Shown in pieces: positions 10,079-19,720 of a DNA stretch of 43,256 nucleotides. The stretch lies in IMG/VR virus record IMGVR_UViG_3300031951_000371, positions 1-43,256 of that record; one strand, given 5' to 3'. A program made the translations under genes and the position numbers. Source of the stretch: a virus. How positions within the stretch are numbered: position 1 is the first letter of the stretch; each line of letters starts with the position of its first letter. The notes beneath the pieces are model-generated. The model had not been told where the DNA came from. It worked only from the letters and a program-made list of their open reading frames with translations, and made no database searches.

Positions 10079-13000
10079 TTAAACATCTTCGAAAGATGCT
10101 CCTGTTGGTGTTATGTAGAATGTTATATCAATAAATTCAAGTGAACGTGTTGGTTTGATATAAATTTTACCAGTCATTTGATTTCTATCTAAATCAGCAG
10201 TGTCGTTAGAAACTGTAACTCGGAAATCGTAAAGACCTCTGTCTCTTCTTATACCGTCAAGAATTGGATTAACCGCATTTAAGAAATCTTGTCTTACTTT
10301 TTCATCGTTTTGGTCAAACAACAACCTTACTGAAACCGCTGAAATTAATTTACGTGCTTGTAATAACAATCTTCTTACGTTAATTCTATCAAGTGCAGAC
10401 TCTCTAACTTGTAGGGTTTTGTTACCCCAAATTACAGTACCAACATCTGAGAAAGTTGCAATTGGGTTAATTCTTCCTAAATATAGAACATCTCTATCTT
10501 CTTGTGTTAACTTTTTACGTGCTTTAATTGAATTAACAATACCACGAGTGTAACCCGCCGCTGCGAACCAAGGGAATGCTATATTATCGGTCAACGCTAA
10601 GTTTCTTGTAACTTCTGCCGTTGGTGGTATATAGATTTGAGTGTTATTAACACTGTCTCTTGTAAGAACCCAAGGATAGTAAGTTGCGGTATAATTGGAA
10701 TCAATTCCAGTCTCTTCTAAATTGTCAACTGCTTCTTGTGGGTAAATAAGACCGTCAGCTCCTGTTGTTGTAGGAAGTAAAAGGTTATAATCTGGAGTTG
10801 TTGTTATATACAATGAATCCGCTCTTTCTGTCTCAATCATTTCTATTGTAGACTCAACCAAATTACTATTGTTAACATAGTCAATACCTGGAGTTACAAA
10901 TAAATTTATATTAACCGCTTCAGGATTAGAGAATGTTCTGATACCTAATAGATATGCGTAGTAGTCAGTATTTGCATAATCAGTTGTACCGTCACCAACA
11001 GAGATTTGTTTAAACGCTCCCCAACCAACTGCGTTTGGATATCTTGTAGTTGCACAAGCTCCGTTTAAATAACCTGTTCTACCTAAAACATATTTATCTT
11101 CATTTGTTCTTCTTTCACGGTATATATCCCATCCATCAAAACCTCCTTGTACTAACAAGGTAAATTTACGTGCAAATAATCTGTAATATGGGTTTGTATC
11201 AACAACAGGTTCAGAACTAAAGTCCGCACTACCAACGTAAAATCTTGGTTCACCACTTGTTGAGAAACCGTTAGAAATTGTTATACCACTTGCATTTTTA
11301 TCCATGTGGAATCCTCTTGTTCTATATAACCAAGGTGACGATTCAGTTGCAAAACAAATGTTTGATGGATTTCTTTTACCCACATATTCGAAGAAACTTG
11401 GGTCGTAACCATAATCAGCACTTGTTGAGAAACCTAAGAATGTTTTTCTTATGTTATCACCAGAAGATAATCCCGCATCATCAGTTCCTGAAGGAGTTCC
11501 AAACGGAGGATTGAATACTAATTCTCCTGGAAAATCATACTTAGTTTTGAAAATTGGGAACGGTGATTTTCCTCCGCTATACTCTCTAAAGTTATAACCT
11601 TCGAAACCACAAGGTAAAGCATCTATTGGTGCATCCTCGTTCATTTCTACCATAATATATCTAGATTTGAGTTCAAACTCTCCATCTAATGTACCTACCT
11701 TTTTAGCAATAAAATTATTTTCTTGCGGATTCATTGAACAGTTAGTGTACTTTTCTAAAACAACAGGGTTTGAGTCTGTATCATAGTAATCTCTCACTAA
11801 CACGGTAAATGTTTCGTTTGCGAAAGATATATCTGAAATAGAAATTTTAACTTCTGTGTTTGCACTGTTACCGTCAGATATAGTGTAAAATTTGAAAAGG
11901 TTATAAACTTTAGAACCTCTTACTTCTGATACTACCCAAGGACTTTCAGGTGATTGATATCTTTCTAAATACCAACCAATTGATGTTGGGTCTTCACTTT
12001 GTGCTTCAGGTAAAGAGATTAAATCACATTTTAAACCTCTAATATATCCTTTGTTGTATGCCCATCTCAACATTGTTTGGAATCTTTCCTCAACAAAAAG
12101 TGGTACGACATTTCTAGGTTTTCCAAAGTTGTTTCCACCGAAAACTTTTGATATATATTCTGAATCACTTGTAGAGAAAGATGTAACAAACGTGAAGTTG
12201 TTACCTAAATAGTTTGTTGCGTTTATAGCAAATTTAGCAAACGGGTTTTTAAGTACACTTTCATATTGACCTGTACAATCCATAGTTACGTCAGTTATAC
12301 CAGTAATTTCATATCTTGGATTATTTTCATCACTGTATGTAGATATACCTCTAGATCTCAATGTCGCAACAACCAAATCATCATAATTTGTATACGCCAT
12401 ACCCGAATAAACATATATCATACCTATCATTGTACCCGAAAAACAATCCACCACAGTTGTAGTTGTTGTAGTTGTGGGAACAACAGGAGTTGGGGTGATA
12501 CAAGGATTTGGTGTTGGTTCGGGTGTTGGTGCTGGTGTAGTTGTAGATGTTGTTATTGGGTTTATATTAGTTAAACCACTAACTACTGACCAAAATGAGA
12601 ACCCTGAATATTCCGCATTACCGATATTTTCAAACAAAGCATAATACCATGTATCATTAAATGGTGATGTGAAGTCAGTCAAACTTGCTGATGGTGACGG
12701 AACATTAAAAACATTTGTCGATGCAGTATATCCACTTGAGAGTATGTCATAATCATCTCCATCGATACTACCAAAATATGCTATAGATGTTTCTTCAGTT
12801 GCCGGATTTAATATTCTTTGATACGCAAAAAACTGTAAATCACTAAGTAATGTAGATGTATTACCATTAAATTGTTCATATTGTTCGTTTAATAATACTT
12901 CTATTTCATCAGGAAAAGATTCAAAAATTACAGATGAAACACCATTAGTACATCCTGTAAATTCTACAGTGAAAGGAATTGTTTTAGGTAAAATACAAAC

Positions 13001-13411
13001 TGGTTCACAACTTCCAGATGGAGTAACCGCACTTAAACAATATGGGTTAATTGTTGTTGGGTCAACGTTCGCACTAGTTGTAATAGACCAAGAAGGACCA
13101 GCGTCGTATCCTGATAGACCTAATATTCTTGAGACAAAAAGTTGATTTGATTGTTGTAAATAAGATTTAGCAATATATGCTGCTTCATATTTAGGTATTT
13201 GGGTGTTAACGAATTTTTCTGGAGATGTTCCCCCAAAGTAAGATTGGAATTCTTCGTAGTTTCTAATAAAAATAGGTTCGAAAGCCGGTCCTTTCAGGGT
13301 TTCTCCAGCAATCCCAAGAGTAGTAACACCAACACTTTGTGCTACAAAACTCAAATCTACTTCAGAAGTATAGACACCTGGTGAAACAAAAATTTTACTA
13401 TTAGTTGCCAT
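10079..13411 (-). CDS. Contractile tail sheath protein, T4 gp18-like, with a large Thr/Pro-linked insertion
   Basis: 1110 residues, against 659 for T4 gp18. The N-terminus 'FVSPGVYTSEVDLSFVAQ' and 'TTLGIAGETLKGPAFEPIFI' and the C-terminal 120 residues ('RRLLLQARKLISAVSVRLLF', 'IRRDRGLYDFRVTVSND', 'MTGKIYIKPTRSLEFIDITF') are classic sheath handshake regions. The surplus lies between about residues 100 and 450 and contains a Thr/Pro linker at 286-321 ('TTSTTTPAPTPEPTPNP' and a run of seven Thr), flanked by Cys residues. This inserted region should face outwards and may be a surface decoration or glycosylation target. It is monocistronic, between a TATTTATA element (39 nt upstream) and a strong terminator. 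Confidence 0.9.
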   Translation of the reverse strand: MATNSKIFVSPGVYTSEVDLSFVAQSVGVTTLGIAGETLKGPAFEPIFIRNYEEFQSYFGGTSPEKFVNTQIPKYEAAYIAKSYLQQSNQLFVSRILGLSGYDAGPSWSITTSANVDPTTINPYCLSAVTPSGSCEPVCILPKTIPFTVEFTGCTNGVSSVIFESFPDEIEVLLNEQYEQFNGNTSTLLSDLQFFAYQRILNPATEETSIAYFGSIDGDDYDILSSGYTASTNVFNVPSPSASLTDFTSPFNDTWYYALFENIGNAEYSGFSFWSVVSGLTNINPITTSTTTPAPTPEPTPNPCITPTPVVPTTTTTTTVVDCFSGTMIGMIYVYSGMAYTNYDDLVVATLRSRGISTYSDENNPRYEITGITDVTMDCTGQYESVLKNPFAKFAINATNYLGNNFTFVTSFSTSDSEYISKVFGGNNFGKPRNVVPLFVEERFQTMLRWAYNKGYIRGLKCDLISLPEAQSEDPTSIGWYLERYQSPESPWVVSEVRGSKVYNLFKFYTISDGNSANTEVKISISDISFANETFTVLVRDYYDTDSNPVVLEKYTNCSMNPQENNFIAKKVGTLDGEFELKSRYIMVEMNEDAPIDALPCGFEGYNFREYSGGKSPFPIFKTKYDFPGELVFNPPFGTPSGTDDAGLSSGDNIRKTFLGFSTSADYGYDPSFFEYVGKRNPSNICFATESSPWLYRTRGFHMDKNASGITISNGFSTSGEPRFYVGSADFSSEPVVDTNPYYRLFARKFTLLVQGGFDGWDIYRERRTNEDKYVLGRTGYLNGACATTRYPNAVGWGAFKQISVGDGTTDYANTDYYAYLLGIRTFSNPEAVNINLFVTPGIDYVNNSNLVESTIEMIETERADSLYITTTPDYNLLLPTTTGADGLIYPQEAVDNLEETGIDSNYTATYYPWVLTRDSVNNTQIYIPPTAEVTRNLALTDNIAFPWFAAAGYTRGIVNSIKARKKLTQEDRDVLYLGRINPIATFSDVGTVIWGNKTLQVRESALDRINVRRLLLQARKLISAVSVRLLFDQNDEKVRQDFLNAVNPILDGIRRDRGLYDFRVTVSNDTADLDRNQMTGKIYIKPTRSLEFIDITFYITPTGASFEDV

Positions 13412-17102: not shown

Positions 17103-17405
17103 ATGAATAGATTGAACGAAAGAAAATTAGAAAGACTTTTAAGAAGAATAGTTAAAGAAGAGGAAGTAAATTTATCGGCAGATGTTGAGTTACTAAAAAC
17201 TCACAGTAACATACCTGGATGTGACCCAGAAAGATTGGACTTCCAAAAATGTTCAACAGAAGCATTTAAAACTTTACCAGCACCTGAGTTTGTAAAATTG
17301 TTTGAAAAATTATCTCAACAATCAGATGAACCATTAGAAAACCCAATGGATTCAATGGGTGAAATGTCAGAGTCTCGAAGAAGATATTATAGAAATAGAT
17401 ACTAA
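17103..17405 (+). CDS. Small basic/acidic protein with an I-x-E leader-like N-terminus (100 aa)
   Basis: 100 residues, not recognised. The N-terminus 'MNRLNERKLERLLRRIVKEEE' is a strongly amphipathic basic helix ending in I-V-K-E. The centre has 'IPGCDPERLDFQKC' with two Cys, and the C-terminus is a basic tail 'SRRRYYRNRY'. Basic-helix-then-IxE is the layout of short capsid-targeting leaders cut by T4-type prohead proteases, so a capsid internal protein is possible. It has its own TATTTATA element and a strong terminator 25 nt after the stop, so it is monocistronic and probably well expressed. Confidence 0.7.
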   Translation: MNRLNERKLERLLRRIVKEEEVNLSADVELLKTHSNIPGCDPERLDFQKCSTEAFKTLPAPEFVKLFEKLSQQSDEPLENPMDSMGEMSESRRRYYRNRY

Positions 17406-17430: not shown

Positions 17431-17455
17431 AACCTCGTCTAACGAGGTTTTTTTG
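17431..17455 (+). terminator. Intrinsic terminator after the 100-aa gene
   Basis: Stem AACCTCG / CGAGGTT (7 bp, 5-nt loop TCTAA) followed by a run of Ts. Because it covers the TTG at 17453, it also argues that the next gene starts at the ATG at 17477. Confidence 0.85.
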
Positions 17456-17464
17456 TTTAAAGAA

Positions 17465-17472
17465 TATTTATC
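17465..17472 (+). promoter_or_regulatory. TATTTATC element upstream of the peptidase-SOD fusion
   Basis: One-mismatch copy of the recurrent TATTTATA element, 4 nt before the ATG at 17477 and 9 nt past the terminator T-run. Confidence 0.3.
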
Positions 17473-17476
17473 ATTA

Positions 17477-18571
17477 ATGAATGTTACTTTTAAAAATATA
17501 AAATGTAAGTTAAATACAAAACAAAAAAATCTATTTAAAGATTTTTGTAAATTTTTACAAAAAAACTATGGTTTAAAAGATGATTTAATAATTTCATTTG
17601 TTGGTGAACGTATCGGTAAAATGACAACTGGTAGTCAACACGTAAAAAAAGGAATTAAAATACTAATTAATAATAGAATGAATAGAGACATTCTGAGAAC
17701 TATGGCTCACGAATGGATTCATGTATATCAAAGAAATGTATTAGGGAGAGAAAGAGGTCCAGACATTGGTGGAAAAAATGAAAACGAAGCAAATGCATTA
17801 GCTGGTTCTCTTTTAAAAAAATTTGAATCAAAAAATCCTAACATGGATGGAATAATTTATGAAGAGGTTAAACCAATACAAAATAAAATAAATTTATTAC
17901 AAGAGCAAATATTATTAATAGATGGGGAAAAATTAAGGAATGAATTTATAAATGAAATGAAAAAAATAGGAATAGAAAAATTACCTTATTCATATTCATC
18001 ATTAAGAAATTTTGTTGACCCAAAAACAATGAACATACATTATAATAAACATTATAAGGGTTATGTAAAAAAATTAAACGATGCTTTATCGGATAAAAAA
18101 TATGGTGATTTAGAATTAGAAGAAATTATTTTATCGGTTAGTAAATATGATGATGTTGTAAGAAATAATGCTGGAGGTGCTTTTAATCACGCTCTGTTTT
18201 GGAAAATGTTATCACCAAAAAAACAAGTCCCTAAAAAAGAGATTCTTGAAAAGATTAATAAGGATTTCGGTAATATTAAAAAAATGAAAGATGAGTTCAA
18301 CGAAGAGTCCAAAAAAAGGTTTGGTTCAGGATGGTGTTGGTTGATAATTACAAAAAATAAAAAATTAAAAATTATATCCACACCAAATCAAGACAATCCT
18401 CTGATGAATATTATAAAAGGAGGGGGATATCCTGTCTTGGGACTTGATTTATGGGAACACGCATATTATTTAAAATACCAAAATAAAAGAGATGAATATA
18501 TCAAAAACTTTTGGAATCATGTAAATTGGGATTTTGTTAATGAACTATTTTTGTCCCGAATAGATAATTGA
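17477..18571 (+). CDS. HEXXH metallopeptidase fused to an Mn-type superoxide dismutase
   Basis: 364 residues from ATG 17477. Residues 1-120 hold a zinc-peptidase core: 'MAHEWIHVYQ' gives His78-Glu79-x-x-His82, and 'NENEANALAGSLL' supplies the third ligand (Glu102 or Glu104), resembling ImmA/IrrE-type gluzincins. A helical linker covers about 130-165. Residues 168-364 are a complete Fe/Mn superoxide dismutase: 'LPYSYSSLRNFVD', ligands His188, His238, Asp324 and His328 ('DLWEHAYYLKYQNKR'), active-site His192 and Tyr196, and 'GSGWCWLI'. Gly at the Fe-enzyme glutamine position (residue 234) together with Gln305 in 'STPNQDNPL' points to the Mn type. It would convert superoxide to peroxide. No signal peptide is seen. 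Standalone SODs are about 200 residues, so the whole domain is present. It is preceded by a terminator and followed by neck genes. Confidence 0.9.
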   Translation: MNVTFKNIKCKLNTKQKNLFKDFCKFLQKNYGLKDDLIISFVGERIGKMTTGSQHVKKGIKILINNRMNRDILRTMAHEWIHVYQRNVLGRERGPDIGGKNENEANALAGSLLKKFESKNPNMDGIIYEEVKPIQNKINLLQEQILLIDGEKLRNEFINEMKKIGIEKLPYSYSSLRNFVDPKTMNIHYNKHYKGYVKKLNDALSDKKYGDLELEEIILSVSKYDDVVRNNAGGAFNHALFWKMLSPKKQVPKKEILEKINKDFGNIKKMKDEFNEESKKRFGSGWCWLIITKNKKLKIISTPNQDNPLMNIIKGGGYPVLGLDLWEHAYYLKYQNKRDEYIKNFWNHVNWDFVNELFLSRIDN

Positions 18572-18595: not shown

Positions 18596-19720
18596 ATGTC
18601 TATTATAAGCAATGAAGAAAGAGAAAAACTCTACAAAAGAGTAAGACACGTATTGGGTGCTCCACTTAGGTCAGTTGAATTAGAAGATGAGCAACTTGAC
18701 ACTCTTTTGGAATTCTCCATTGAGGACTATTCGCAATACATACAAGAATGGTTGACTGAAAGTCAATGGACAAGTTTATGGGGATTAAACGTTGAAACCC
18801 AATCTTTAACAAATGCCTTCATGACTAAAAGTTTGGATTACGAAACAAGATATACTTATGCGTATTCAAAAATTGTAGGTTTGCAAGCCGGAGGTGATTG
18901 GGTACTAAAAAAAGATTATATTCAATTAGAACGAGGACAACAAATTTATGAGATACCTGCGGGTCGAGAATTAAACGAATTGTTGTGGTTTACTCCACCA
19001 GAAATGAATAACCTTCTGTTCGATCCTTGGGCCTTTGGAGGTATTGCTGGTGGTGGTATATCAGGACCTGCAGGATACGCACAAGTTGGTAACGTGTCAG
19101 GTAGTTATTTCTTAATGCCAGCATTTGATATGTTGTTGAGAATGCAAGAAATAAATATACAAAAAAGAATAATTGCTGGTGACTTAACTTATCGTGTGAC
19201 CGCACTACCTAACGGAAAAAAAGGTATACACTTAATGAATACACCTGGAGGTAAATTTGATTTTGGTAACTCAACTTTGATGAAAGGTAAAGTTTGGTAT
19301 TGGTATTACGACACAAACGATGCTGATAGAGATAAATGTTTAAAAGATAATCCTGACATTATAAAACTTCCTTCGGATGTACCTTTTGATAAAATAAGTT
19401 GGAACGATTTAAATAATCCTTCTCAAATTTGGGTTAGAAGATGGTTTGTTGCTTCAGCAAAAGAACTATTATCAAAAGTTAGAGGTAAATTTAGTGGTAA
19501 TTTGAAAACTCCTGATGGTGACCTAACTATGGATTATGCAACTTTAGCAACAGAAGGTAAAGACGAAAAAACTAAATTACTTGAGGAGTTGACAGGAGCT
19601 GAAGGAAGATTAACAAGACTTAGACCTGATAAAGTTTTAGAAAGAGAGGCATTAATTGCTGAAAATCTTAACAAGACTTTGAAGTTTAGAGCTATGCCAA
19701 GACAAATATACGTAATATGA
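18596..19720 (+). CDS. Neck / head-completion protein, gp13-like candidate
   Basis: 374 residues (T4 gp13: 309). The N-terminal 'LDTLLEFSIEDYSQYIQEWL' helix is of the kind seen in neck and connector proteins. The C-terminal third has 'WVRRWFVASAKELLSKVRGKFSGNLKTPDGDLTMD' and then a Glu/Lys helix 'EKTKLLEELTGAEGRL', a pattern typical of gp13-like proteins. A Gly-rich loop ('AFGGIAGGGISGPAG', about 148-162) lies between. It would sit on the portal after packaging and receive the tail. Its TGA overlaps the ATG of the next gene by 4 nt (ATGA), so the two are coupled. Assignment is by pattern and context. Confidence 0.55.
   Translation: MSIISNEEREKLYKRVRHVLGAPLRSVELEDEQLDTLLEFSIEDYSQYIQEWLTESQWTSLWGLNVETQSLTNAFMTKSLDYETRYTYAYSKIVGLQAGGDWVLKKDYIQLERGQQIYEIPAGRELNELLWFTPPEMNNLLFDPWAFGGIAGGGISGPAGYAQVGNVSGSYFLMPAFDMLLRMQEINIQKRIIAGDLTYRVTALPNGKKGIHLMNTPGGKFDFGNSTLMKGKVWYWYYDTNDADRDKCLKDNPDIIKLPSDVPFDKISWNDLNNPSQIWVRRWFVASAKELLSKVRGKFSGNLKTPDGDLTMDYATLATEGKDEKTKLLEELTGAEGRLTRLRPDKVLEREALIAENLNKTLKFRAMPRQIYVI

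Follow-up and report, generated by a model that had tools for sequence, protein, structure and literature searches.

The window, a stretch of 43,256 nucleotides of viral DNA, harbors on its plus strand a frame that translates without a stop into a protein of 364 residues, in which an N-terminal zincin domain is joined through a linker to a superoxide dismutase (SOD) domain of the Mn type (Table 1). The gene is preceded by an ORF of 100 aa, which gave no family match, and is followed by the gene for a head–tail adaptor. The original prediction placed it among structural genes, which is only roughly the case: the adaptor agrees with that description, but a helicase, the 100-aa ORF and a DNA polymerase are also neighbours. 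On the minus strand, positions 10079-13411 of the window encode a tail sheath protein of 1110 aa, where the sheath match covers the last 290 residues only and the long N-terminal part is unmatched.

Table 1. Features of the zincin–SOD gene and its surroundings (positions in the window; residues of the 364-aa protein).
Feature	Position	Strand	Basis
Upstream 100-aa ORF, with leader MNRLNERKLERLLRRIVKEEE like the tags of relatives	17103..17405	+	Tag-profile score above all 1692 internal sites; same place in relative G001
Terminator-like stem (AACCTCGT/ACGAGGTT) and T run, between 100-aa ORF and fusion gene	17431..17454	+	Read from the sequence; many relatives have a comparable stem
TATTTAT late-type element, starting 12 nt before the fusion ATG	17465..17471	+	Found in every one of 38 distinct upstream regions
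Fusion gene, 364 aa: zincin, linker and Mn-type SOD	17477..18571	+	Open frame; Pfam SOD; best 80 of 224 relatives all fused
Zincin (HEXXH) domain, residues 1-120	17477..17836	+	AlphaFold model; structural matches to phage zincins
HEWIH, residues 78-82, HEXXH metal/catalytic motif	17708..17722	+	No variation at H78, E79 or H82 among 55 distinct relatives
E102-N103-E104, candidate third metal ligand, in the next helix	17780..17788	+	E102, E104 invariant; helix 100-119
Helical linker, residues 132-164, from zincin to SOD	17870..17968	+	Helix, pLDDT 60-78 by block; least conserved region
Conserved L-x-E, residues 141-143, candidate prohead-protease site	17897..17905	+	[LI]xE kept by at least 95% of the 28 aligned sequences; tag-profile top 0.7%
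Conserved [LI]-x-E, residues 158-160, second candidate site	17948..17956	+	At least 95%; tag-profile 11% tail, unremarkable; P1' always Met
Mn-type SOD domain, residues 166-358	17972..18550	+	Pfam; phmmer to solved SODs, 1.2e-62; ligands invariant
Downstream head–tail adaptor gene	18596..19720	+	phrog_211, 1.5e-10; same order in relative G001

Judged by its sequence, the C-terminal half is an intact Mn-type SOD. Pfam recognises Sod_Fe_N at residues 167-246 (3.3e-20) and Sod_Fe_C at residues 252-356 (2.4e-40), and the solved structures nearest to the window protein, aligned over residues 168-356, are SODs, mostly Mn enzymes. The metal ligands are, by homology, H188, H238, D324 and H328, so that the protein has both of the domains and the three His and one Asp ligands that define a Fe/Mn SOD. 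H192, Y196 and Q305 are second-sphere residues, the last of them being the glutamine of the Mn type.

The N-terminal domain was modelled by AlphaFold with 28 relatives (mean pLDDT 87.5 over residues 1-165) as a small alpha/beta fold, in which helix 69-87 carries the HEXXH motif and helix 100-119 the glutamates. With this succession of a HEXXH helix and a second one bearing a conserved Glu, in an alpha/beta fold, the domain conforms to the zincin-like metallopeptidases. Pfam matches are weak and distributed over several zincin families (DUF6055, SprT, M76, M91 and M78; best E 1.9e-4 among 28 members), the window protein reaches the cut-off of no Pfam zincin family, and solved structures, such as YbeY and thermolysin, match weakly as well (E 0.019 or worse). 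Among predicted structures of phage proteins there are 24 matches at E <= 1e-3, the best of which is a standalone protein of 127 aa with 41% identity, while others sit within large proteins named amidoligase, AAA or cytidyltransferase. The scattered weak Pfam matches, together with the good phage matches, therefore point to a phage zincin family that is not securely ImmA/IrrE. The domain had been described beforehand as gluzincin or ImmA/IrrE-like, an assignment that was not secured, although two of the phage structural matches are named IrrE-like: the ImmA/IrrE family (PF06114, M78) matched 2 of the 28 members, with a best E of 0.011, and did not attain its cut-off, so that membership in it was rejected. 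The standalone zincin relative of Synechococcus phage B23, gp332, gave 8.9e-4 and 19.5 bits against PF06114, below the cut-off of 22. Its N-terminus, MNYKQFLRES, we take to resemble a capsid-targeting peptide of T4.

Viral contigs gave 224 stretches coding for relatives, the best 80 of which were examined, comprising 55 distinct proteins. Peptidase and SOD share one frame in all of these best 80 of the 224, which confirms the single-frame phage fusion of the original prediction and rules out that an assembly join or a frameshift between the two domains had produced it. Nor are the two domains always encoded separately, since fusion is the rule within this phage group, and the standalone zincin relatives found belong to phages outside it. 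The architecture is widespread in viral contigs, and each of the 36 larger contigs yielded exactly one match to the peptidase profile, the open frame around it being in every case long enough for the fusion. The residues that had been named for the peptidase (H78, E79, H82, E102 and E104) and for a complete Mn-type SOD (the four ligands with H192, Y196 and Q305) are all invariant in the 55 distinct relatives, as predicted. Both halves are under purifying selection; in the comparison with relative L016, the peptidase has a dN/dS of 0.12 and the SOD one of 0.04, and with values of about 0.04-0.08 the SOD is under the strongest purifying selection.

In a quick tree with some long branches, 17 fused SODs group together (SH-aLRT 98) next to SODs of Bacteroidota, with which they share 46-52% identity, and most of the other phage SODs tested lie far from this clade. 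Because the fused SODs form a single clade in that position, the fusion probably arose once. A cellular origin of the whole fusion found no support: the Bacteroidota SODs examined lack the peptidase domain, being standalone enzymes with short or signal-like N-terminal extensions, and the peptidase profile had no match in 395 Bacteroidota genomes. A scan of genome contigs with two short patterns returned at least 13 loci, and the matches listed were to the SOD part. For the capsid protein of the relatives, the nearest counterparts come from an uncultured phage, a Microcystis phage and the Flavobacterium phages immuto. The hosts are probably freshwater Bacteroidota, and the carriers are T4-like jumbo phages that probably infect members of this phylum. 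By eye, two ORFs that adjoin the major capsid gene or lie close to it (L098 2122-4215 and L099 10150-10440, both on the minus strand) begin like secreted proteins of the Bacteroidota type, a hint as to the host.

The sequence TATTTAT is found within 45 nt upstream of 13 of the 28 window genes in the sense orientation and of none in the antisense orientation, as compared with 1.8 in shuffles. This strand bias, and its presence in 38 of 38 distinct upstream regions of the fusion, bear out the earlier claim that the gene has a late-type element of its own. It probably serves this phage group as its late promoter, from which some mRNAs would be nearly leaderless; with TATTTAT as the -10 element, the fusion mRNA would be one of them. 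In the window, the element usually starts 20-23 nt before the start codon, against 12 nt at the fusion gene. A T4 late promoter (TATAAATA) in the gene direction was rejected, as the element reads TATTTAT in that direction.

In 34 of the 80 relatives examined (the best 80 of 224), the SOD continues into a further C-terminal module, of which there are at least four kinds, and by their sequences these modules are exchangeable. One of them, with a conserved GQD...QVKP, is like PD-(D/E)XK nucleases. A secure nuclease identity was not reached, given that this module had no Pfam match and that its best nuclease fold match, I-Ssp6803I, is weak (prob 0.95, but E 0.05 and TM 0.19). The module of L015 and L029 is a small domain, which is also found in relative G002 as standalone proteins with the leader MKIIITESQYKLIKEN, whose genes flank the fusion gene on either side in a tandem arrangement and, in one case, sit beside gp21. 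As the domain at the SOD end is that of the neighbouring tandem proteins, this small module looks like one gained by fusion with an adjacent gene. The tandem tagged paralogues, of ~149 aa, flank the fusion gene at G002:C1:238754-242671 (L194-L195), and more copies are present elsewhere in that genome. It was also considered that the downstream structural gene had been fused to the SOD in the long relatives, which was rejected because the extensions are unrelated modules.

The joints between the modules carry a recurrent motif. The T4 prohead protease gp21 cleaves after the consensus L/I-X-E (PMC9026906). Only two [LI]xE motifs are kept in at least 95% of the 28-sequence alignment, and both of them lie within the linker; permutation of the linker columns for both motifs gave p = 0.054, so that, taken alone, they are suggestive only. 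The window linker LQEQILLIDGEKLRN was scored with a leader profile built with the anchors excluded, and it falls in the top 0.7% of the 1692 internal sites used as background, or about 4% after correction, as this site is one of six in the window protein. At the joint between SOD and C-terminal module, most long relatives have LNES, LKES, LNET or LNEN. These sequences suggest that the joints are candidate gp21 cleavage sites, at which the protein would be cut apart. A gp21-type prohead protease is encoded in 4 of 9 records, all of them relatives, and the long-contig relatives also encode gp23, the N-terminus of which has a T4-like LINE|AT in 4 of 4 genomes examined; neither gene was found on the window's own contig or on near-identical ones, which stop short of the head genes, so that both proteins are known only from relatives. 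Two of the traits of a T4-type internal protein, a gp21-type protease and an [LI]xE in the protein itself, are thus present, the first of them in relatives only.

Similar motifs head many other proteins of these phages. The pattern [LI]xE[SANQ] occurs within the first 28 residues of 57 of the 292 proteins of relative G001 (19.4 +- 4.0 when shuffled) and in the N-terminal leaders of 53 of the 325 proteins of G002 (21.1 +- 4.4), and the stricter [LI][TN]E[SANQ] occurs 25 times in G002 against 2.8 +- 1.6, figures that are inflated by paralogous leaders and that come from mechanically called ORFs of relatives sharing ancestry. Leader families such as RLTESDLTRIVRRVIKEQ, MNLQESIRRILRE and KIIITESQYKLIKEN are found on dozens of otherwise unlike proteins (L100-L114 of G001; L183-L197 of G002). 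Recurrent leaders of this kind are probable capsid-targeting tags, which, by analogy with T4, would direct the proteins to the capsid. The simple leader pattern is present in 0 of 31 window proteins; such a lack of enrichment would be expected of a window occupied mostly by genes for tail and replication.

The gp21 consensus at the joints, the gp21 and gp23 genes of the relatives, the enrichment of leaders, the score of the linker, the standalone tagged form of a C-terminal module and the start of B23 gp332 lead us to propose that the fusion is a cargo polyprotein, which gp21 would cut after its packing into the head and which would be injected to provide SOD at entry. We consider this as probable as its negation, the relatives that support it not being independent of one another. 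According to this model, late expression from the TATTTAT element would yield the protein, which would enter the prohead core; there the gp21-type protease would cut at the [LI]xE joints, and the freed modules would be injected with the DNA. The SOD could then remove superoxide at entry, being active as soon as infection begins and ahead of viral transcription; the zincin and the C-terminal module may act on host or DNA targets. T4 provides the precedent for cutting, targeting and injection, and zincin polyvalent proteins that for the architecture. The [LI]xE joints and the tag-bearing proteome of the relatives lend weight to the original suggestion of a late-made or packaged protein, packaging itself being inferred. 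Several features count against cargo: a few long relatives have VKE in place of [LI]xE at the SOD joint (VKES in two), Met follows the Glu of the second linker site, and the N-terminus of the window fusion, MNVTFKNIKC, has no [LI]xE nearby and no leader of its own, the tag-like element being internal. In its general form, that Bacteroidota jumbo phages pack multi-enzyme polyproteins, from which the prohead protease frees zincin, SOD and a variable third enzyme at internal tags for injection, the proposal is tentative, and we would put it slightly below even chances.

The main rival is a late-expressed auxiliary enzyme that stays uncut in the cell as a two-domain protein, its linker being structural and its SOD guarding host and virus during replication. 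The prediction of the linker as one helix speaks in its favour, and so do the separate SOD genes found among metabolic and stress genes in other phages and the common occurrence of oxidative-stress genes in freshwater phages (PMC6802176). It leaves unexplained, however, why the conserved motifs are positioned at the joints, why these joints are like the leaders of dozens of proteins and why it is at joints of this type that the C-terminal modules have been exchanged, and we regard it as possible but rather unlikely. It could also be argued that the zincin itself cuts the linker, freeing the SOD before packaging or after injection, as zincin self-processing has been proposed for polyvalent proteins (Iyer et al. 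2017, PMC5512222), the catalytic residues of the zincin are invariant and several linked modules occur in relatives; but the joint motifs fit the gp21 consensus and proteins bearing similar leaders are generally devoid of a zincin, which makes self-processing improbable. A zincin controlled by an SOD that acts as a sensor of superoxide or metal, the redox or metal switch of the original prediction, has in its favour only that two domains with their catalytic residues kept are joined, and is very improbable, since the SOD keeps all its catalytic residues under the strongest purifying selection, as a working enzyme would, and a variable linker of lower confidence separates the domains; no evidence for such switching was found.

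If the fusion is indeed packaged, these phages import their own superoxide defence into the cell, and oxidative stress at entry would be a pressure worth countering ahead of viral gene expression. The cargo polyprotein would then be a case of a bacteriophage delivering an antioxidant enzyme by means of its virion, as part of a cargo system that relies on tags and comprises dozens of proteins per phage. The joints suggest a testable [LI]xE tag code, by which packaged and injected proteins could be predicted among several hundred unknown jumbo-phage proteins, and such tags could also be a means of loading enzymes into phage heads. Even without packaging, there remains a widespread architecture that was not found described in the literature searched. 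SODs as separate phage genes are already known, and no paper on a peptidase–SOD fusion was found in a search whose coverage left out most subscription journals; nor did a search for papers that link capsid-targeting sequences or cargo with jumbo phages bring up any. SOD is unmentioned in the jumbo-phage survey and has 0 occurrences in the paper on polyvalent proteins (PMC5512222), and a clue to SOD in PMC4908380 was dismissed, as it is merely the title of a reference.

Among known systems, SOD is listed as one of the virion-packaged proteins of giant viruses (PMC9405923), but the Cu,Zn SOD of these viruses, e.g., Megavirus chilensis, belongs to an unrelated enzyme family and to viruses of eukaryotes. 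Vibrio phage 2.275.O and the group of Pseudomonas phages Callisto/PA5oct share with the fusion a phage-borne Fe/Mn SOD, which in them is a separate gene, with 26-28% identity and a distant place in the tree. The Fe/Mn SODs of Bacteroidota are closer, having the full domain with all ligands and an adjacent position in the tree, and differ in that those examined have no peptidase domain. The internal proteins of T4 (IPI-III and Alt), whose capsid-targeting peptides are cut by gp21 and whose injection is established (PMC9026906), resemble the present case in the gp21 orthologue of the relatives, the [LI]xE sites and the targeting-like leaders. The T4 cargo named in that paper does not include SOD, the packaging of the fusion is inferred from sequence, and its sites, unlike those of T4, are located between the enzyme domains of one polyprotein and not only at its ends. 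As to the architecture, the zincin is the commonest domain of phage polyvalent proteins (Iyer et al. 2017, PMC5512222), which combine several effector domains, commonly with a zincin, as the fusion does with its zincin, SOD and optional module. In both, a zincin is joined to other, exchangeable enzymatic modules; the fusion differs from polyvalent proteins in that it is small, with two or three domains, and in that its joints fit a prohead protease.
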